This document shows positions 1,781 through 49,290 of a stretch of DNA of 55,178 nt, piece by piece. The position numbers and the translations under genes are program-made. Origin of the DNA: Dehalococcoidales bacterium (GTDB lineage Bacteria > Chloroflexota > Dehalococcoidia > Dehalococcoidales > UBA2162); NCBI GenBank assembly GCA_016932435.1, contig JAFGCW010000090.1, positions 1-55,178 on the forward strand, written 5' to 3'. Numbering within the stretch: position 1 is the first letter of the stretch; every line of letters begins with the position of its first letter. Below the pieces are notes generated by a model that did not search any database, was not told the origin of the DNA, and worked only from the letters and a program-made list of their open reading frames with translations.

Positions 1781-1809
1781 TTGACACTTCCCCATCGATA
1801 CTATACAAT
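1781..1809 (+). promoter_or_regulatory. Sigma70-type promoter of the structured RNA
   Basis: A consensus -35 box TTGACA (1781-1786) and a TACAAT -10 box (1804-1809) are separated by exactly 17 bp. Transcription would start near 1816, at the first base-paired segment of the RNA candidate that follows. Confidence 0.65.
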
Positions 1810-1815
1810 CAAAAT

Positions 1816-2008
1816 AACCTGATAAAGGCATATATCAACCGGAGGTTATCAGTGCCGAACTGGAAAGGTAAGACCGGTCATACGATAGGGACATTTCACA
1901 TGATGATGCCCTGGGCCTGGCGTGCCGCCAGTTCGGGGACCATGTAAACTCCAGTCCCGAACAGACAGAAAGCCAGGCCTGGAAGCGTGTTGTTTCCGGG
2001 CTTTTTTT
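1816..2008 (+). ncRNA. Structured RNA of about 190 nt upstream of the sulfur cassette
   Basis: The segment lies between a consensus promoter and a T7-tailed terminator and is full of perfect stems: ATAACCT 1814-1820 with 1843-1849; CCGAACTGG 1855-1863 with CCAGTTCGG 1928-1936; AGGGACAT 1887-1894 with ATGCCCT 1906-1912; GTTCGGGGAC 1931-1940 with GTCCCGAAC 1954-1962; GGCCTGGC 1914-1921 with GCCAGGCC 1972-1979. The 1931-1936 strand is shared by two exclusive stems, and 1977-1979 is shared by a stem and the terminator, as in a switching leader. It precedes a homocysteine-synthesis gene. I do not find the SAM-I, cobalamin, TPP or T-box core motifs. It is either a riboswitch/attenuator or an independent small RNA, since a second promoter-like sequence follows it. 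Confidence 0.5.
1977..2008 (+). terminator. Intrinsic terminator of the structured RNA
   Basis: GCCTGGAA (1977-1984) pairs with TTCCGGGC (1994-2001) with one G-U pair, around a 9-nt loop, and is followed directly by seven T residues. Its 5' arm overlaps the 3' arm of an upstream stem by three bases, which would allow regulated termination. Confidence 0.65.
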
Positions 2009-2021
2009 ATGCGAAAATCCA

Positions 2022-2050
2022 TTGACACTTCGAATACCGGACGCTACTAT
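2022..2050 (+). promoter_or_regulatory. Possible second promoter directly before the DUF39 gene
   Basis: TTGACA (2022-2027) and TACTAT (2045-2050) are 17 bp apart, just after the terminator. A start near 2057 would put +1 inside the GGAGG ribosome site of the next gene, giving an almost leaderless message. This is unusual, so the match may be chance. If real, the structured RNA is a separate transcript rather than a leader. Confidence 0.35.
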
Positions 2051-2065
2051 CAAACGGAGGTAAAA

Positions 2066-3283
2066 ATGGCGAAAACCATTGAAGAGATAAACGAGAAAAT
2101 AAAAACAGGTAAAGCGGTGGTGTTCACCGCCGAGGAAATAATTGATTACGCAAAGGAAAACGGGATAAAGAAATCGGCCCGTGACGTGGATGTGGTCACC
2201 ACCGGTACGTTCGGCGCGATGTGCTCGTCCAGCGCCTACCTTAATATCGGGCATTCGAGCCCCCGGATAAAACTCGGCGGCGGCAGGACCTACCTGAACG
2301 ATGTCCCCGCCTATACCGGAGTAGCGGCGGTCGACCTTATTATCGGCGCTACCGCCATGCCGGACGACGACCCGCGAAACAGGATTCACCCCGGCGAATT
2401 CAATTACGGCGGAGGACATGTCATCGAAGAACTGGTGGCGGGTAACGATATCAGGCTTTCGGCAACCGCCTACGGTACCGACTGCTATCCGCGCCGAAAG
2501 CTGGAGACCTGGATAAATATCAAAGACCTGAACGAAGCGGTCCTCTACAACCTGAGGAATGCCTACCAGAATTACAATGTCGCGGTGAACCTGTCCGATA
2601 AAACGATATATACCTACATGGGGATGTTGAAACCGAACCTCGGCAACGCAAATTACAGCACAGCCGGTCGGTTGTCTCCCCTGTTTAATGATCCTTATTA
2701 CAAGACGATAGGTATCGGCACGAGGATATTCCTCGGCGGCGGAACGGGCTATGTCGCCTGGCAGGGCACCCAGCACAATCCTGCGGTATCGCGTAATGAA
2801 AAAGGCATACCGAAAGGCGGCGCCGGAACCCTGGCACTGATCGGTGACCTAAAAGAAATGAGTCCGAGGTGGCTGGTGGGTACGAGTATGCTGGGATACG
2901 GGCCAACCCTCAGTGTCGGTGTCGGTATTCCTATACCTATACTTTCGGAAGAAATATTGGAGTATACAACTGTGGATGACGGTGATATAGTCGCCACCGT
3001 AATAGACTACTCATCGGCATATCCCCAGCGCAAACCCGATACCGTGGCAGAGGTAACCTACGGCGAATTAAGGAGCGGTCACGTGAGAATCCGGAATAAA
3101 AAGATTCCTACTGCATCGCTGTCCAGCTACCCCCGCGCTTTGGAGGTCGCCACCATACTCAAAGAATGGATACAGAAGAGCGAGTTCCTCCTGACATCGC
3201 CGGTAGCGCCGCTGCCGGGAGCGGATTCGGGACTTGATTTCAAACCACTCAACGAACGTCCTGTCGAGGAAGAAAATCGATAA
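2066..3283 (+). CDS. Homocysteine biosynthesis protein (HcyBio/DUF39, COG1900)
   Basis: The 405-residue protein matches the HcyBio/DUF39 family in length and in its glycine-rich core (GTFGAMCSSSA, FLGGGTGYVAWQGTQH, and a C-terminal SYPRALEVATILKEWI). In methanogens this family, with a NIL-domain ferredoxin, forms homocysteine from aspartate semialdehyde using a sulfur donor, replacing the usual acyl-homoserine route. A cysteine in GTFGAMCSS near residue 52 is a candidate for persulfide chemistry. ATG 2066 is chosen because GGAGG lies 5 nt before it and MAKTIEEINEKI is a typical family start. It leads the sulfur cassette; a perfect 13-bp stem-loop separates it from the ferredoxin gene. Family assignment is firm; the exact sulfur donor in bacteria is not settled. 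Confidence 0.88.
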   Translation: MAKTIEEINEKIKTGKAVVFTAEEIIDYAKENGIKKSARDVDVVTTGTFGAMCSSSAYLNIGHSSPRIKLGGGRTYLNDVPAYTGVAAVDLIIGATAMPDDDPRNRIHPGEFNYGGGHVIEELVAGNDIRLSATAYGTDCYPRRKLETWINIKDLNEAVLYNLRNAYQNYNVAVNLSDKTIYTYMGMLKPNLGNANYSTAGRLSPLFNDPYYKTIGIGTRIFLGGGTGYVAWQGTQHNPAVSRNEKGIPKGGAGTLALIGDLKEMSPRWLVGTSMLGYGPTLSVGVGIPIPILSEEILEYTTVDDGDIVATVIDYSSAYPQRKPDTVAEVTYGELRSGHVRIRNKKIPTASLSSYPRALEVATILKEWIQKSEFLLTSPVAPLPGADSGLDFKPLNERPVEEENR

Positions 3284-3349: not shown

Positions 3350-3760
3350 ATGGCAGCATCGAAACGAATAGTACTGCGGTTCCCGCGGCGGCTGGTGGAC
3401 AGGCCCATTGTCAGCCGCCTTGTACGGGACTATAACCTTGATTTTAATATTCTAAAGGCCTCGGTAACACCGGAGGAAGAAGGGCTCCTGATTCTTGAAA
3501 TGACAGGCAAACAGGATGACTATGACAAGGGTATCGAGTACCTGACGAAGGCGGGAGTAAAGATTCAGTCGCTGAGCCAGGACGTTACCAGGAACGAAGA
3601 AAGGTGCACTCACTGTGGCTCCTGCATTACCGTCTGCCCCGCCGGGGCGTTCGAACTGGAGAAGTCGACTCGAAAAGTATTATTCCTCGATAAAAAATGT
3701 ATCGCTTGCGGGATATGCATCAAGACCTGCCCTCCGCGAGCAATGGAACTGCATTTCTAG
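3350..3760 (+). CDS. NIL domain plus 2x[4Fe-4S] ferredoxin
   Basis: Residues 1-78 form a NIL domain (the small domain also seen at the C-terminus of the methionine transporter ATPase MetN). Residues 83-136 form a two-cluster ferredoxin with the motifs CTHCGSCITVC and CIACGICIKTC. Such fusions accompany DUF39 and are thought to deliver electrons for reductive sulfur insertion into homocysteine. The ribosome site is AAGGGG, 9 nt before ATG. The gene lies 66 bp after DUF39, separated only by the stem-loop, and 17 bp before the GNAT gene, so co-transcription is likely. The role is by homology to the methanogen pair; the sequence itself shows only the two domains. Confidence 0.88.
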   Translation: MAASKRIVLRFPRRLVDRPIVSRLVRDYNLDFNILKASVTPEEEGLLILEMTGKQDDYDKGIEYLTKAGVKIQSLSQDVTRNEERCTHCGSCITVCPAGAFELEKSTRKVLFLDKKCIACGICIKTCPPRAMELHF

Positions 3761-3777: not shown

Positions 3778-4314
3778 ATGCTTGAAACCGAACGTCTCAT
3801 AGTCCGACCGTTCCGCGAGGACGATTATTTAGCTCTTTTTGAATACCTTTCGATAGTAGAAACATACCGGTTCGAACCGGGCGACCCGATATCGCTGGAA
3901 GAAGCGAAAGAAATTGCACTGAAAAGATCAGATAGTGTGAACTGGTGGGCAGTCACCTTAAAGAATGATACCAAGTATAAACTTATCGGGCACATATCGC
4001 TTTTCCAGTCTGAACCGGAGGTTTTCAAGACATGGGAGATCGGTTATATATTCAACCCGGCTTTCCAGAACAAAGGTTACGCAACAGAAGCAGCCGGTGC
4101 TGTTATCAGATTCGTCTTTGAGAAACTGAACGCCCACAGAATAATCGCTCATTGCAGTCCAGAAAACATCCCATCGTGGAAGGTCCTTGAAAAATGCGGA
4201 ATGATTCGGGAAGGCCTGCAAAGGAAAAATGCGTTCTTTAAAACCGATGATAAGGGTAATCCACTATGGTTCGATTCATTTGATTACGCAATACTGGCTG
4301 ATGATGAAAGATGA
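3778..4314 (+). CDS. GNAT-family N-acetyltransferase (RimJ/RimL type)
   Basis: This 178-residue protein starts with the RimJ/RimL-type N-terminus (LETERLIVRPFREDDY) and carries the acetyl-CoA binding region WEIGYIFNPAFQNKGYATEA followed by NIPSWKVLEKCGM. Relatives acetylate ribosomal-protein N-termini or small amines. The frame extends upstream, but ATG 3778 is chosen because the earlier part overlaps the ferredoxin gene. Its stop overlaps the next start in an ATGA, so it is translationally coupled to the UPF0280 gene. Why an acetyltransferase sits inside a sulfur cassette is unknown. It may modify a pathway intermediate or simply have been inserted. Confidence 0.82.
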   Translation: MLETERLIVRPFREDDYLALFEYLSIVETYRFEPGDPISLEEAKEIALKRSDSVNWWAVTLKNDTKYKLIGHISLFQSEPEVFKTWEIGYIFNPAFQNKGYATEAAGAVIRFVFEKLNAHRIIAHCSPENIPSWKVLEKCGMIREGLQRKNAFFKTDDKGNPLWFDSFDYAILADDER

Positions 4315-5048
4315 ACAATTATTTGTATGAACCGAGAACCTATCGTAACCGGATCCATGATACGGACCTGGTGTCGTTCGGTGTAACTATCAAAGAGACC
4401 GACTTATATATACGCGCCCGGAAAAACCTGAGGAGTAAAGCGGAAAGGCTGGCAGAGAAATACCGCAGGATACTGGAGAGATATATAGAACGGTATCCTG
4501 ACTTCCTGACAACCCTTGAGCCATTTTCCCCCGGTGATAACGCGCCGATGATCGTGAAGGAGATGGTGGAAGCTGCCGTCGCGGCAGGTGTCGGACCGAT
4601 GGCTGCGGTAGCCGGGGCTATCGCCGAATGCGTCGGCAGAGAATTGCTTGAATACTCACCTGAAGTAATCGTGGAAAACGGTGGTGATATCTTTATGAAA
4701 AGTCTATCCCAAAGAACAGTCAGCATATACGCCGGTAAATCCCCTCTCAGTAATAAAATCGCGCTGGAGATAGCACCCGAAGATACGGCGGTCGGGATAT
4801 GTACCTCTTCAGGTACCGTCGGTCATTCACTGAGTTTCGGAAAAGCTGACGCGGTTGTCATCGTGTCTCCCTCTACTTCCCTTGCCGACGCAGTCGCTAC
4901 CGCCACCGGGAACCTGGTAAAAACCGAAGAAGATATTCAGATCGGACTGGACTTTTCGGAAAAAATCCCCGGTGTAAAAGGCGCATTGATAATCATTAAT
5001 GATAAAATGGGTGTACATGGGGACCTGAAACTCAGCCGGACGGACTGA
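4311..5048 (+). CDS. UPF0280 family protein (COG2122, ApbE-like fold)
   Basis: The 245-residue protein matches UPF0280 over its length: YEPRTYRN at the N-terminus, GPMAAVAGAIAECVGRELL near 100-118, VENGGDIFM near 125, and a C-terminal SLSFGKADAVVIVSPSTSLADAVATATGN. The fold resembles the flavin transferase ApbE. In methanogens COG2122 proteins co-occur with DUF39 and NIL-ferredoxin genes and have been tied genetically to sulfur assimilation into homocysteine. Here it starts inside the stop of the GNAT gene (ATGA) and ends 26 bp before the E1-like gene. The biochemical activity of the family is not known, so the pathway link rests on gene context. Confidence 0.85.
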   Translation: MNNYLYEPRTYRNRIHDTDLVSFGVTIKETDLYIRARKNLRSKAERLAEKYRRILERYIERYPDFLTTLEPFSPGDNAPMIVKEMVEAAVAAGVGPMAAVAGAIAECVGRELLEYSPEVIVENGGDIFMKSLSQRTVSIYAGKSPLSNKIALEIAPEDTAVGICTSSGTVGHSLSFGKADAVVIVSPSTSLADAVATATGNLVKTEEDIQIGLDFSEKIPGVKGALIIINDKMGVHGDLKLSRTD

Positions 5049-5074
5049 TACCTGTCCGGAAAGGGGTGCTCGGA

Positions 5075-5824
5075 ATGCTGAACAATAACGAACTGGAACG
5101 ATATGACCGCCAGATTATAATGAGGGGTTTCGGCGAAGAAGGCCAGGAAAAGCTCAAGCAGGCAAAGGCATTTATCGCCGGCTGCGGAGGATTGGGATCG
5201 CCTATCGCGATATACCTTGCCGAAGCCGGTATCGGTACGCTCAGGATTGTCGACCAGGATACGGTTGATACCAGCAACCTGAACCGGCAGATTCTTCACT
5301 GGGACGCCGACGTTAAAAAAGCGAAAGTTGAATCGGCAAACGCCAAACTCAGTAACATGAACTCAAATATTACGATAGAAGCTCTTAGGGAAACCATTGA
5401 CGAAAATAATGTATACCAATTGACCGAGGACTGCGATTTTATTATGGACGCCATGGACAACCTGGAGACGCGTTTTCTGCTCAACCAGGCGGCGATAAAG
5501 CACAATATACCGTATTTCCACGGAGCGGTACACGGTCTCGAAGGCAGGATATTGACGATAATTCCCGGTGAAACCGCCTGCATCAGGTGTATTTACCGGG
5601 GAGACATTCCCAGGGAAAAATTTCCCGTCCTTGGTGTAACCCCGGGAGTAGTAGGCTGCCTCCAGGCAACTGAAGCCATCAAGTATCTTACCGGGATAGG
5701 CAAGCTGTTGACCGACCGGCTTCTGGTGTATGACGGTCTCGGAATGAAATTTATGGAACTATCGGTTAAAAGGGATCCGGAATGCCCTCACTGTGGGCAC
5801 CTTCCGTTCAAACAGGAAGAATGA
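5075..5824 (+). CDS. HesA/MoeB/ThiF-family adenylyltransferase (E1-like)
   Basis: This E1-like enzyme activates the C-terminal glycine of a ubiquitin-like sulfur carrier as an acyl-adenylate. It shows RYDRQIIMRGFG at the start, the nucleotide loop GCGGLGSP near residue 35, the SNLNRQI segment near 68, the DAMDN magnesium site near 130, two CxxC zinc pairs (CIRC near 170 and CPHC near 240), and VGCLQATEAIKYLTG. ATG 5075 is preferred over GTG 5066 because AAGGGG lies 8 nt before it. Its stop overlaps the start of the sulfur-carrier gene in an ATGA. That coupling points to thiocarboxylate formation on the carrier. Thiamin or molybdopterin service is possible, but no such genes are adjacent. Confidence 0.9.
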   Translation: MLNNNELERYDRQIIMRGFGEEGQEKLKQAKAFIAGCGGLGSPIAIYLAEAGIGTLRIVDQDTVDTSNLNRQILHWDADVKKAKVESANAKLSNMNSNITIEALRETIDENNVYQLTEDCDFIMDAMDNLETRFLLNQAAIKHNIPYFHGAVHGLEGRILTIIPGETACIRCIYRGDIPREKFPVLGVTPGVVGCLQATEAIKYLTGIGKLLTDRLLVYDGLGMKFMELSVKRDPECPHCGHLPFKQEE

Positions 5825-6105
5825 GCGTTAAGATTGTAATACCTCCCGGTCTGCGGGTTTTTACCAATGATACAGGTGAAATCAAGGTTACCGGTAATAC
5901 GGTGGGTGAATGTCTGGAAAACCTGGCAGCACTGTTCCCGATGATCGGGAAGACCCTATTTTTCCAGAAAGGTGAACTATTCAATTTCGGACATCATAAA
6001 ATATCGATATACCTTAACGGTGAAGATGCCTATCCGGATGAACTGGTCAAACCGGTAAAAGACGGCGACACAATACATATCCTGTACTCGATCAGCGGCG
6101 GCTGA
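5821..6105 (+). CDS. MoaD/ThiS-family ubiquitin-like sulfur carrier protein
   Basis: The 94-residue beta-grasp protein ends in the diagnostic diglycine (YSISGG), which an E1-like partner converts to a thiocarboxylate that donates sulfur. ATG 5821 overlaps the E1 gene stop, giving a pair with fixed stoichiometry. In Wolinella a ThiS-like protein (HcyS) serves as sulfur donor for homocysteine. The neighbours here suggest a similar role, but with DUF39 and NIL-ferredoxin as the acceptor machinery. It is slightly longer than ThiS (66 residues) and close to MoaD/CysO size. The family is clear from the C-terminus and E1 coupling; the acceptor is inferred. Confidence 0.88.
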   Translation: MSVKIVIPPGLRVFTNDTGEIKVTGNTVGECLENLAALFPMIGKTLFFQKGELFNFGHHKISIYLNGEDAYPDELVKPVKDGDTIHILYSISGG

Positions 6106-48841: not shown

Positions 48842-49234
48842 ATGCAGGAAGTCTACGAATTCTTAAAGAAAGCCGGAGTCTATTACCTGGCAACCGTGGA
48901 GGGAGATCAGCCGAGGGTGCGTCCTTTCGGGACCTATCACATTTTCGAGGACAAGCTCTATATACAGACAGGCAAAGTAAAAGACGTCTCGAAACAAATG
49001 GGAGCAAATCCCAAGGTTGAGATTTGTGCTATGAGTGAAGGCTCCTGGATTCGCATCCAGGCTAATGCTATTGAAGATGACCGCATCGAAGCAAAGACGA
49101 GTATGCTTGACGCTTATCCTAACCTGAAAGACAGGTACTCCGCTGATGATGATAATTGTCAGGTACTGTATCTAAAGGATGCTGTCGCCACCATCTCCTC
49201 TTTTACCGGCGAACCGAAAGTGATCAAGTTCTAA
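48842..49234 (+). CDS. Pyridoxamine 5'-phosphate oxidase-like FMN-binding protein
   Basis: The 130-residue split-barrel protein matches the short PNPOx-like family: EVYEFLKKAGVYYLATVEGDQPRVRPFGTYHIFEDKLYIQTGKVKDVSKQM with the FMN-contacting RVRPF. A VEICAMSEGSWIRIQA segment follows. Members are flavin- or heme-linked reductases of unknown substrate. A GGGAG ribosome site precedes ATG 48842, and a strong terminator follows. Confidence 0.85.
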   Translation: MQEVYEFLKKAGVYYLATVEGDQPRVRPFGTYHIFEDKLYIQTGKVKDVSKQMGANPKVEICAMSEGSWIRIQANAIEDDRIEAKTSMLDAYPNLKDRYSADDDNCQVLYLKDAVATISSFTGEPKVIKF

Positions 49235-49258
49235 ACAGATCCTAGAAATATAAACGAT

Positions 49259-49290
49259 AAGTCCGGCTGAGTACACAGCCGGACTTTTTT
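49259..49290 (+). terminator. Intrinsic terminator after the PNPOx-like gene
   Basis: AAGTCCGGCT (49259-49268) pairs with AGCCGGACTT (49277-49286) around GAGTACAC, and six T residues follow. It also lies just beyond the stop of the converging PIG-L gene, which it may serve from the other side. Confidence 0.8.

Follow-up and report, generated by a model that had tools for sequence, protein, structure and literature searches.

The stretch of DNA analysed here (contig JAFGCW010000090.1 of a Dehalococcoidales bacterium, 55,178 nucleotides (nt); hereafter the window) carries a homocysteine biosynthesis gene, HcyBio/DUF39, and 5' of it a short transcription unit with a promoter, competing stems and a terminator. 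As judged from its letters and those of its relatives, this unit is very probably a ribosome-mediated leader peptide transcription attenuator that senses charged methionyl-tRNA (Met-tRNA). The locus is laid out as follows (ORF, open reading frame):

1781..1809, + strand: promoter P1, TTGACA-17-TACAAT, 11/12 in the promoter scan
1841..1845, + strand: GGAGG, putative Shine-Dalgarno (SD) site of the leader ORF, seen in the letters
1852..1947, + strand: predicted leader peptide ORF, GTG start (1852), 31 codons plus TAA, VPNWKGKTGHTIGTFHMMMPWAWRAASSGTM
1855..1863, + strand: arm A (CCGAACTGG), protector helix, partner arm E
1876..1893, + strand: arms B' and B, pairing with 1907-1917 and covering part of the antiterminator arm
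1900..1908, + strand: Met codon cluster ATG ATG ATG, codons 1 and 3 invariant
1912..1920, + strand: arm D (TGGGCCTGG), codons W-A-W, antiterminator 5' arm
1928..1940, + strand: arm E (CCAGTTCGGGGAC), partner A or F
1942..1944, + strand: final Met codon, invariant
1954..1962, + strand: arm F (GTCCCGAAC), partner E
1973..1986, + strand: arm G, terminator 5' arm, alternative partner D
1991..2008, + strand: arm H and T7 tract (2002-2008) of the intrinsic terminator
2022..2050, + strand: promoter-like P2, TTGACA-17-TACTAT, 3' of the terminator, 10/12 in the promoter scan
2066..3283, + strand: HcyBio/DUF39 homocysteine biosynthesis gene (PF01837, 509.9 bits)
3350..3760, + strand: NIL/ferredoxin gene, same pathway (PF09383 and Fer4 models)
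4311..5048, + strand: PRK04334 gene, taken as the third pathway gene (NF003323, 310.8 bits, cut-off 271)

The promoter and the T7-tailed terminator named in a first-pass annotation made from the letters alone are both present. So are the pairings it described, 1855-1863/1928-1936, 1931-1940/1954-1962 and 1913-1920/1972-1979, of which the first two compete for one strand and the last overlaps the terminator arm. That annotation had viewed the unit as a structured RNA only and overlooked the ORF at 1852-1947. The scan of the window placed the terminator at 1975-2003, and the whole of it, with its seven T, spans 1973-2008; terminator-like sites are not enriched in the window (2 found, shuffle mean 2.1). 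The fold stability of the element is modest (z -1.93, with 11 of 200 shuffles equally stable), and we judge the element to be real because its structure is conserved across relatives.

Relatives of the element

Genome contigs were scanned with the DUF39 protein; 395 stretches were confirmed and the best 80 loci, mostly titled Dehalococcoidia, were kept. The same leader lies upstream of DUF39 in L001, L003, L006, L010 and L026. Genome sets were defined by G003 (the source of L006, titled Dehalococcoidales) and comprise 393 genomes of its class, 156 of its order and 11 of its family, with overlap between sets. A core pattern allowing up to three mismatches was found once per matching genome, in 5/393 class, 13/156 order and 4/11 family genomes, and its reversed control matched in none of the sets. 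A covariance model built from 13 sequences (R1) had matches in 20 of the 156 order genomes at E<=0.01, some of them weak, and class-wide in 6 of 393 genomes, all already seen in the order search; at L005 the match is partial, at a contig start.

Reading the matches singly gave 16 Met-type elements in 15 of the 156 order genomes, plus that of the window. The element L084/L001, partly N, was left out of alignments and pair counts, and the 16-sequence alignment used below (A2) includes the window. A further R1 match in the window, at 49140-49290 (E 0.49), was dropped: it covers a terminator and the end of the coding stretch to which that terminator belongs. Weak matches of R1 or R2 at L111, L112, L118, L125, L126, L127, L129 and L132 appeared by eye to be rRNA-like, coding or a bare terminator, and were rejected; L128, L131 and L134 were left unread.

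The leader reading frame and its Met codons

All 13 sequences tested keep the leader frame open, against 0/13 and 3/13 for the other two frames, and 15 or 16 codons separate its start from the Met cluster in them. In the 16-sequence alignment the start codon is GTG in 12, TTG in three and TCG in one, with purine-rich sites 5' of it seen by eye in relatives. ATG occupies the first, second and third positions of the cluster in 16/16, 12/16 and 16/16 sequences and the final Met codon in 16/16, so M-x-M and the last Met codon are kept in all, the window included. In the peptides, (V or L)PN, or something close to it, is followed by M-x-M, then by an invariant W and finally by the last M. Met is the most frequent leader residue (52 of 405 in 13 sequences); its mean fraction is 0.01 in the leaders of other specificity described below.

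The leader frame has no excess of silent changes (325 silent, 1582 not), the other frames giving 345/1483 and 269/1666 in these pairwise, not independent, counts. A functional peptide is therefore not supported by this test: what is conserved is the frame, the Met codons and the pairing, rather than the peptide sequence as such. Altogether, the element looks to encode a translated leader peptide.

Competing RNA structures

In the terminator state, A pairs with E, B' and B pair with the strand CD', and G pairs with H. The share of paired cells in this structure is 92.8% over 13 sequences; shuffles reach 89.7% and slid controls 24.1 to 61.3%. Two-sided cells number 17 (5.9 in shuffles). With 16 sequences and 29 pairs, 90.1% of cells are paired against 85.0% in shuffles, two-sided cells number 30 against 11.2 and the covariation score is 0.308 against 0.204, none of which is reached by any of 500 shuffles; pairs with two-sided change number 10 against 6.8 (reached by 9/500), and slid controls fall far below.

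The single helices differ in this alignment. The terminator helix G:H is paired in 100% of cells, with two-sided changes at five pairs, and A:E in 94.4%, with two pairs changed on both sides; the B' and B helices are the weakest (82.8% and 71.9%, the latter for B:C). Immediately after the Met cluster, the codons of arm D can pair with the terminator 5' arm, so that antiterminator and terminator folds compete. This D:G helix is paired in 95.7% of cells over 13 sequences, two of its pairs having two-sided changes. The E:F duplex has an energy of -15.3, against -8.8 with letters shuffled. In short, covariation is present in the terminator and in A:E, D:G has complementarity with some covariation, and E:F has complementarity only.

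When the RNA downstream of a ribosome on the first Met codon, placed with the usual footprint size, was folded before H is made, the mean probability of D:G over the 16 sequences was 0.90 (range 0.57-1.00).

Genes and promoters of the Met-type elements

Methionine genes lie downstream of all 17 Met-type elements read. DUF39, judged in each case by its translated start, follows 13 of them, including those of the window and of L084. The remaining four precede the methionyl-tRNA synthetase gene metG (L093; TIGR00398, 420.7 bits, cut-off 336.35), the O-acetylhomoserine sulfhydrylase gene metY (L114 and L107; TIGR01326, 646.8 and 647.5, cut-off 495.1) and metX (L109; PRK00175, 490, cut-off 331). 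A P1-like TTGACA site scoring 9 to 12 of 12 stands 5' of the leader in 14/16 elements, the window's among them; the best-scoring site 5' of the leader reaches only 7/12 in L107 and L109.

In the window, DUF39 is followed by the NIL/ferredoxin gene, a GNAT gene and the PRK04334 gene, the last of which has no Pfam match; we take PRK04334 to be COG2122. The homocysteine route comprises DUF39, NIL/ferredoxin and COG2122, according to passages of PMC5764234. ThiF/MoeB-like and ThiS-like genes come after the DUF39 cluster (5066-6102), a possible sulfur carrier pair for the pathway.

Upstream of DUF39 in distant phyla, another short ORF was seen within about 260 nt of the gene (L067, L069, L074, L075, L076 and L080, with variants at L065 and L018). 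It has a strong SD site, mostly GGTGGTG, begins with MLWIM (ATGTTATGGATCATG) or a variant, and is often followed by a hairpin of GCCCC/GGGGC type. A pattern search matched 5/7 of these genomes, the few extra matches at three mismatches being chance-like, and Rfam had no match in 13 loci of this kind or neighbouring ones. This ORF is possibly another methionine leader or an arrest peptide.

A probable wider family with exchanged codons

The weaker model matches are leaders of other amino-acid specificity that share the antiterminator core:

L108: WWW before trpS, over cut-off
L121 and L133: VVVVV and VVVV before valS fragments, below cut-off, genes clipped by the locus
L144: YY..YYY before tyrS, over cut-off
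L113, L120, L178 and L185: runs such as HHHAHH before hisS-like genes, below cut-off and with similar scores for hisS and hisZ
L123: Leu codons before leuS, over cut-off
L145 and L180: VLIVVVALL and a like run before ilvD fragments, below cut-off
L147 and L190: Arg codons before argJ, over cut-off
L117: Arg codons before ornithine carbamoyltransferase, below cut-off

The comparison covers 19 such leaders, selected for a downstream gene with an assigned amino acid; in several the start codon was chosen by eye. Their mean fraction of cognate codons is 0.180, a level reached in 0 of 20,000 permutations (0.074 when permuted). The same result (0/20,000) is obtained with one leader per gene (12 leaders). 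Taken singly, the Leu, Arg and ornithine carbamoyltransferase cases are weak.

R3, a model made from 24 sequences of the common antiterminator core, had matches in 52 of the 156 order genomes at E<=0.05 and in 10 of the 393 class genomes at E<=1e-4. The list holds 49 matches with E<1e-6, in 24 genomes: 16 are Met-type, 13 lie before other amino acid genes, one is a His-type leader at a contig end, and the other 19 precede genes without an amino acid match (by eye transporters, acetyltransferases, methyltransferases, ABC-F and unknowns). The R3 building set contains 23 of the 49; 26 are outside it, 10 of these being close Met-type kin. Above E 1e-6, the matches read were L189-L192 and L206. Newly matched elements such as L178, L180 and L185 lend the family independent support. 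Pairing of D:G across the 24 mixed sequences amounts to 73.7% of cells; shuffles give 71.9%, with 33/500 as high, and slid controls 17.8 to 45.8%, so that covariation across specificities is only moderate.

Weighing these results, we think it fairly probable that the leaders form one homologous attenuator family of the Dehalococcoidales, with a core of about GGGCYTGGYGTGYCT, which has been copied in front of many genes, is re-programmed by exchange of its stall codons (Met, Trp, Val, Tyr, His, Leu, Ile/Val/Leu, Arg), works beside T-boxes and includes the Met attenuation of DUF39.

By eye, copies of the core also stand before ABC-F (L188, L189), MFS-like (L110, L116, L130, L135, L182), acetyltransferase-like (L181, L183, L196, L205) and methyltransferase-like genes (L115, L146, L187). 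The ABC-F gene of L188 has NCBIfam support below cut-offs, the sole such support among these copies, and the one MFS-like gene put to NCBIfam had no match at E<=1e-55. Copies before transporter, acetyltransferase, methyltransferase and ABC-F genes may report ribosome trouble or inhibition in general.

Proposed mechanism and alternatives

An attenuator can be recognized in sequence by an ORF with a ribosome-binding site, a cluster of cognate codons, an intrinsic terminator, an antiterminator exclusive with it and fitting genes downstream. All are found here, with conserved Met codons, alternative helices, methionine genes and the codon-gene match of the sister leaders; translation, stalling, the order of folding and read-through we infer. 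Transcription would start at P1 and a ribosome would load on the 31-codon leader. With Met-tRNA plentiful, the ribosome would reach the stop codon, cover arm E and separate D from G, whereupon G would pair with H, the terminator would form and RNA polymerase would stop before DUF39. When Met-tRNA is scarce, the ribosome would stall with the first Met codon in its A site and its leading edge, given the usual footprint size, just before arm D. D would then pair with G, with E:F inside, and block the terminator, so that the polymerase would read into DUF39, NIL/ferredoxin and the COG2122-type gene and homocysteine would be made for methionine. P2 would add expression that bypasses the switch.

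Several observations weigh against the attenuator. The aligned start codon is TCG in L109, where other copies have GTG or TTG, and the middle Met codon is replaced by Val, Ile or Lys in 4/16 sequences. Met starvation also lowers initiator Met-tRNA and could hinder translation of the leader itself. R1 matches only 6 of the 80 DUF39 loci, some of whose contigs end early. The 16-sequence alignment has no more pair types than shuffles do (294/500). The covariation of D:G is modest, its score being reached by 16/500 shuffles and its two-sided cells by 80/500, and that of E:F is not significant (permuted partners -14.8, reached by 144/2000). Untranslated RNA already forms D:G with a probability of 0.76 before H, which drops to 0.27 once H is out; the switch must therefore rest on kinetics and on the ribosome keeping the two sides apart, as we assume it does. 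With the ribosome footprint masked, folding of the full element at equilibrium did not separate the states, the mean terminator probability being 0.93 free, 0.94 stalled and 0.88 at the stop. Finally, a P2-like TTGACA-17 site lies 3' of the terminator in 11 of 12 DUF39 copies (the exception is L091, and L084 was left out), which suggests that expression of DUF39 partly escapes the attenuator.

These P2-like sites stand 15 to 24 nt upstream of the DUF39 start codon, and similar sites lie 48 and 49 nt before metX (L109) and metY (L107). DUF39 thus probably has expression that bypasses the attenuator and is only partly under control of the leader. With the sites (TTGACA-17-TANNAT) this near to DUF39, transcripts from them would have a very short untranslated leader; by eye, DUF39 has similar sites in front of it in relatives that lack the attenuator, L020 for example.

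Such a second promoter, together with a P1-terminator unit of about 190 nt, could also mean that the unit yields a stable small RNA or a small peptide acting in trans while DUF39 is expressed from P2. There is precedent in the trans-acting leader peptide peTrpL of Sinorhizobium meliloti (PMC7298713). However, the peptide lacks an excess of silent changes; the best P2-like sites score only 7/12 before metG (L093) and 8/12 before metY (L114), which leaves the leader as the evident route; and a trans role gives no reason for the match between codons and genes. We consider this explanation very improbable, although a trans role may exist beside attenuation. The first-pass annotation had likewise allowed for an independent small RNA on account of P2; the site is conserved, and DUF39 may be partly independent of the leader. 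The same annotation had called the element switch-like and placed in it a sensor for S-adenosylmethionine (SAM), methionine, homocysteine or corrinoid. The competing structure and the link to methionine hold, as competing stems and a terminator do precede a methionine gene, whereas the sensor is most likely a ribosome on Met codons rather than an aptamer. In agreement with the annotation's failure to place the element in a known family, a search of Rfam gave no match at gathering scores, to a riboswitch or to the T-box (RF00230). At E<=10 there were two weak matches only, neither of them a ligand riboswitch over the element: ST7-AS2_1, a long non-coding RNA family, and atoC at 1648-1729, upstream of the element, which was judged chance (20.2 bits, cut-off 50). 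Moreover, much of the invariant sequence outside helices consists of the Met codons and the start region, and the core recurs with swapped codons in relatives that serve Trp, Val, Tyr, His, Ile/Leu/Val and Arg genes, all of which makes a ligand-binding riboswitch very improbable.

The peptide of the window has three Trp, and TGG is found at the second W of W-A-W in 16/16 sequences, as would be expected if the leader sensed tryptophan or if the nascent chain were a specific arrest peptide. Yet the first TGG is replaced by an Arg or Gly codon in 9/16, the invariant one belongs to arm D, and leaders of other specificity also contain A-W. The downstream genes serve methionine and the peptide is not conserved as a protein; this possibility appears highly improbable.

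Discussion

In the trp, his and ilv attenuators, a leader ORF with cognate codons is combined with protector, antiterminator and terminator hairpins. The window family has the same kind of ORF and the same three hairpin types; in contrast to the classical systems, the leader ORF itself contains the antiterminator arm, directly following the stall codons, and the core is common to several specificities. The T-box reads uncharged tRNA directly, without an ORF. It coexists with the leaders, RF00230 being found at E<=0.001 in 17 of the 17 leader-bearing genomes chosen (16 over cut-off), whereas the window has no RF00230 match.

Among described systems, one of the closest is MetL of Campylobacter jejuni, a leader peptide before metBA proposed as a Met leader in passages of PMC3847290; a ribosome profiling (Ribo-seq) signal at its start site marks the translation start, according to passages of PMC11955535, which also suggest that a methionine transport gene is preceded by another Met-rich leader, MMYQMR. 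In both MetL and the window a short ORF with Met codons lies on an early-ending RNA before methionine genes, and the same mechanism is proposed. MetL has 20 residues with three Met codons and, in those passages, is known in C. jejuni, C. coli and C. doylei only, whereas the window family precedes DUF39, metX, metY and metG in Chloroflexota and shares its core with other specificities. His leader peptides before hisS and hisZ are described in bacilli in passages of PMC2965389, which state in 2010 that, until that case, leader peptide systems had been known only in Proteobacteria and Actinobacteria. Like the bacilli leaders, the window family would place a synthetase-type gene under leader-peptide control outside those two phyla; the two differ in phylum and in amino acid. 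According to excerpts of PMC1262725, no conserved RNA structures were seen before methionine operons in Actinobacteria. We found no report of leader peptide attenuation in Chloroflexota in the open-licence literature searched, subscription journals being mostly outside the search; in excerpts of PMC9413887 and PMC4833913, Chloroflexi figure only in a reference title or as a group with few genomes.

Control of methionine genes by leader peptides is little documented, MetL of Campylobacter being the case found. The attenuator proposed here would be a plausible regulator of the DUF39 route to homocysteine. In addition, the wider family would provide a set of naturally occurring variants, different codons being read by one RNA core, through which codon-specific stalling and the evolution of attenuators become testable.
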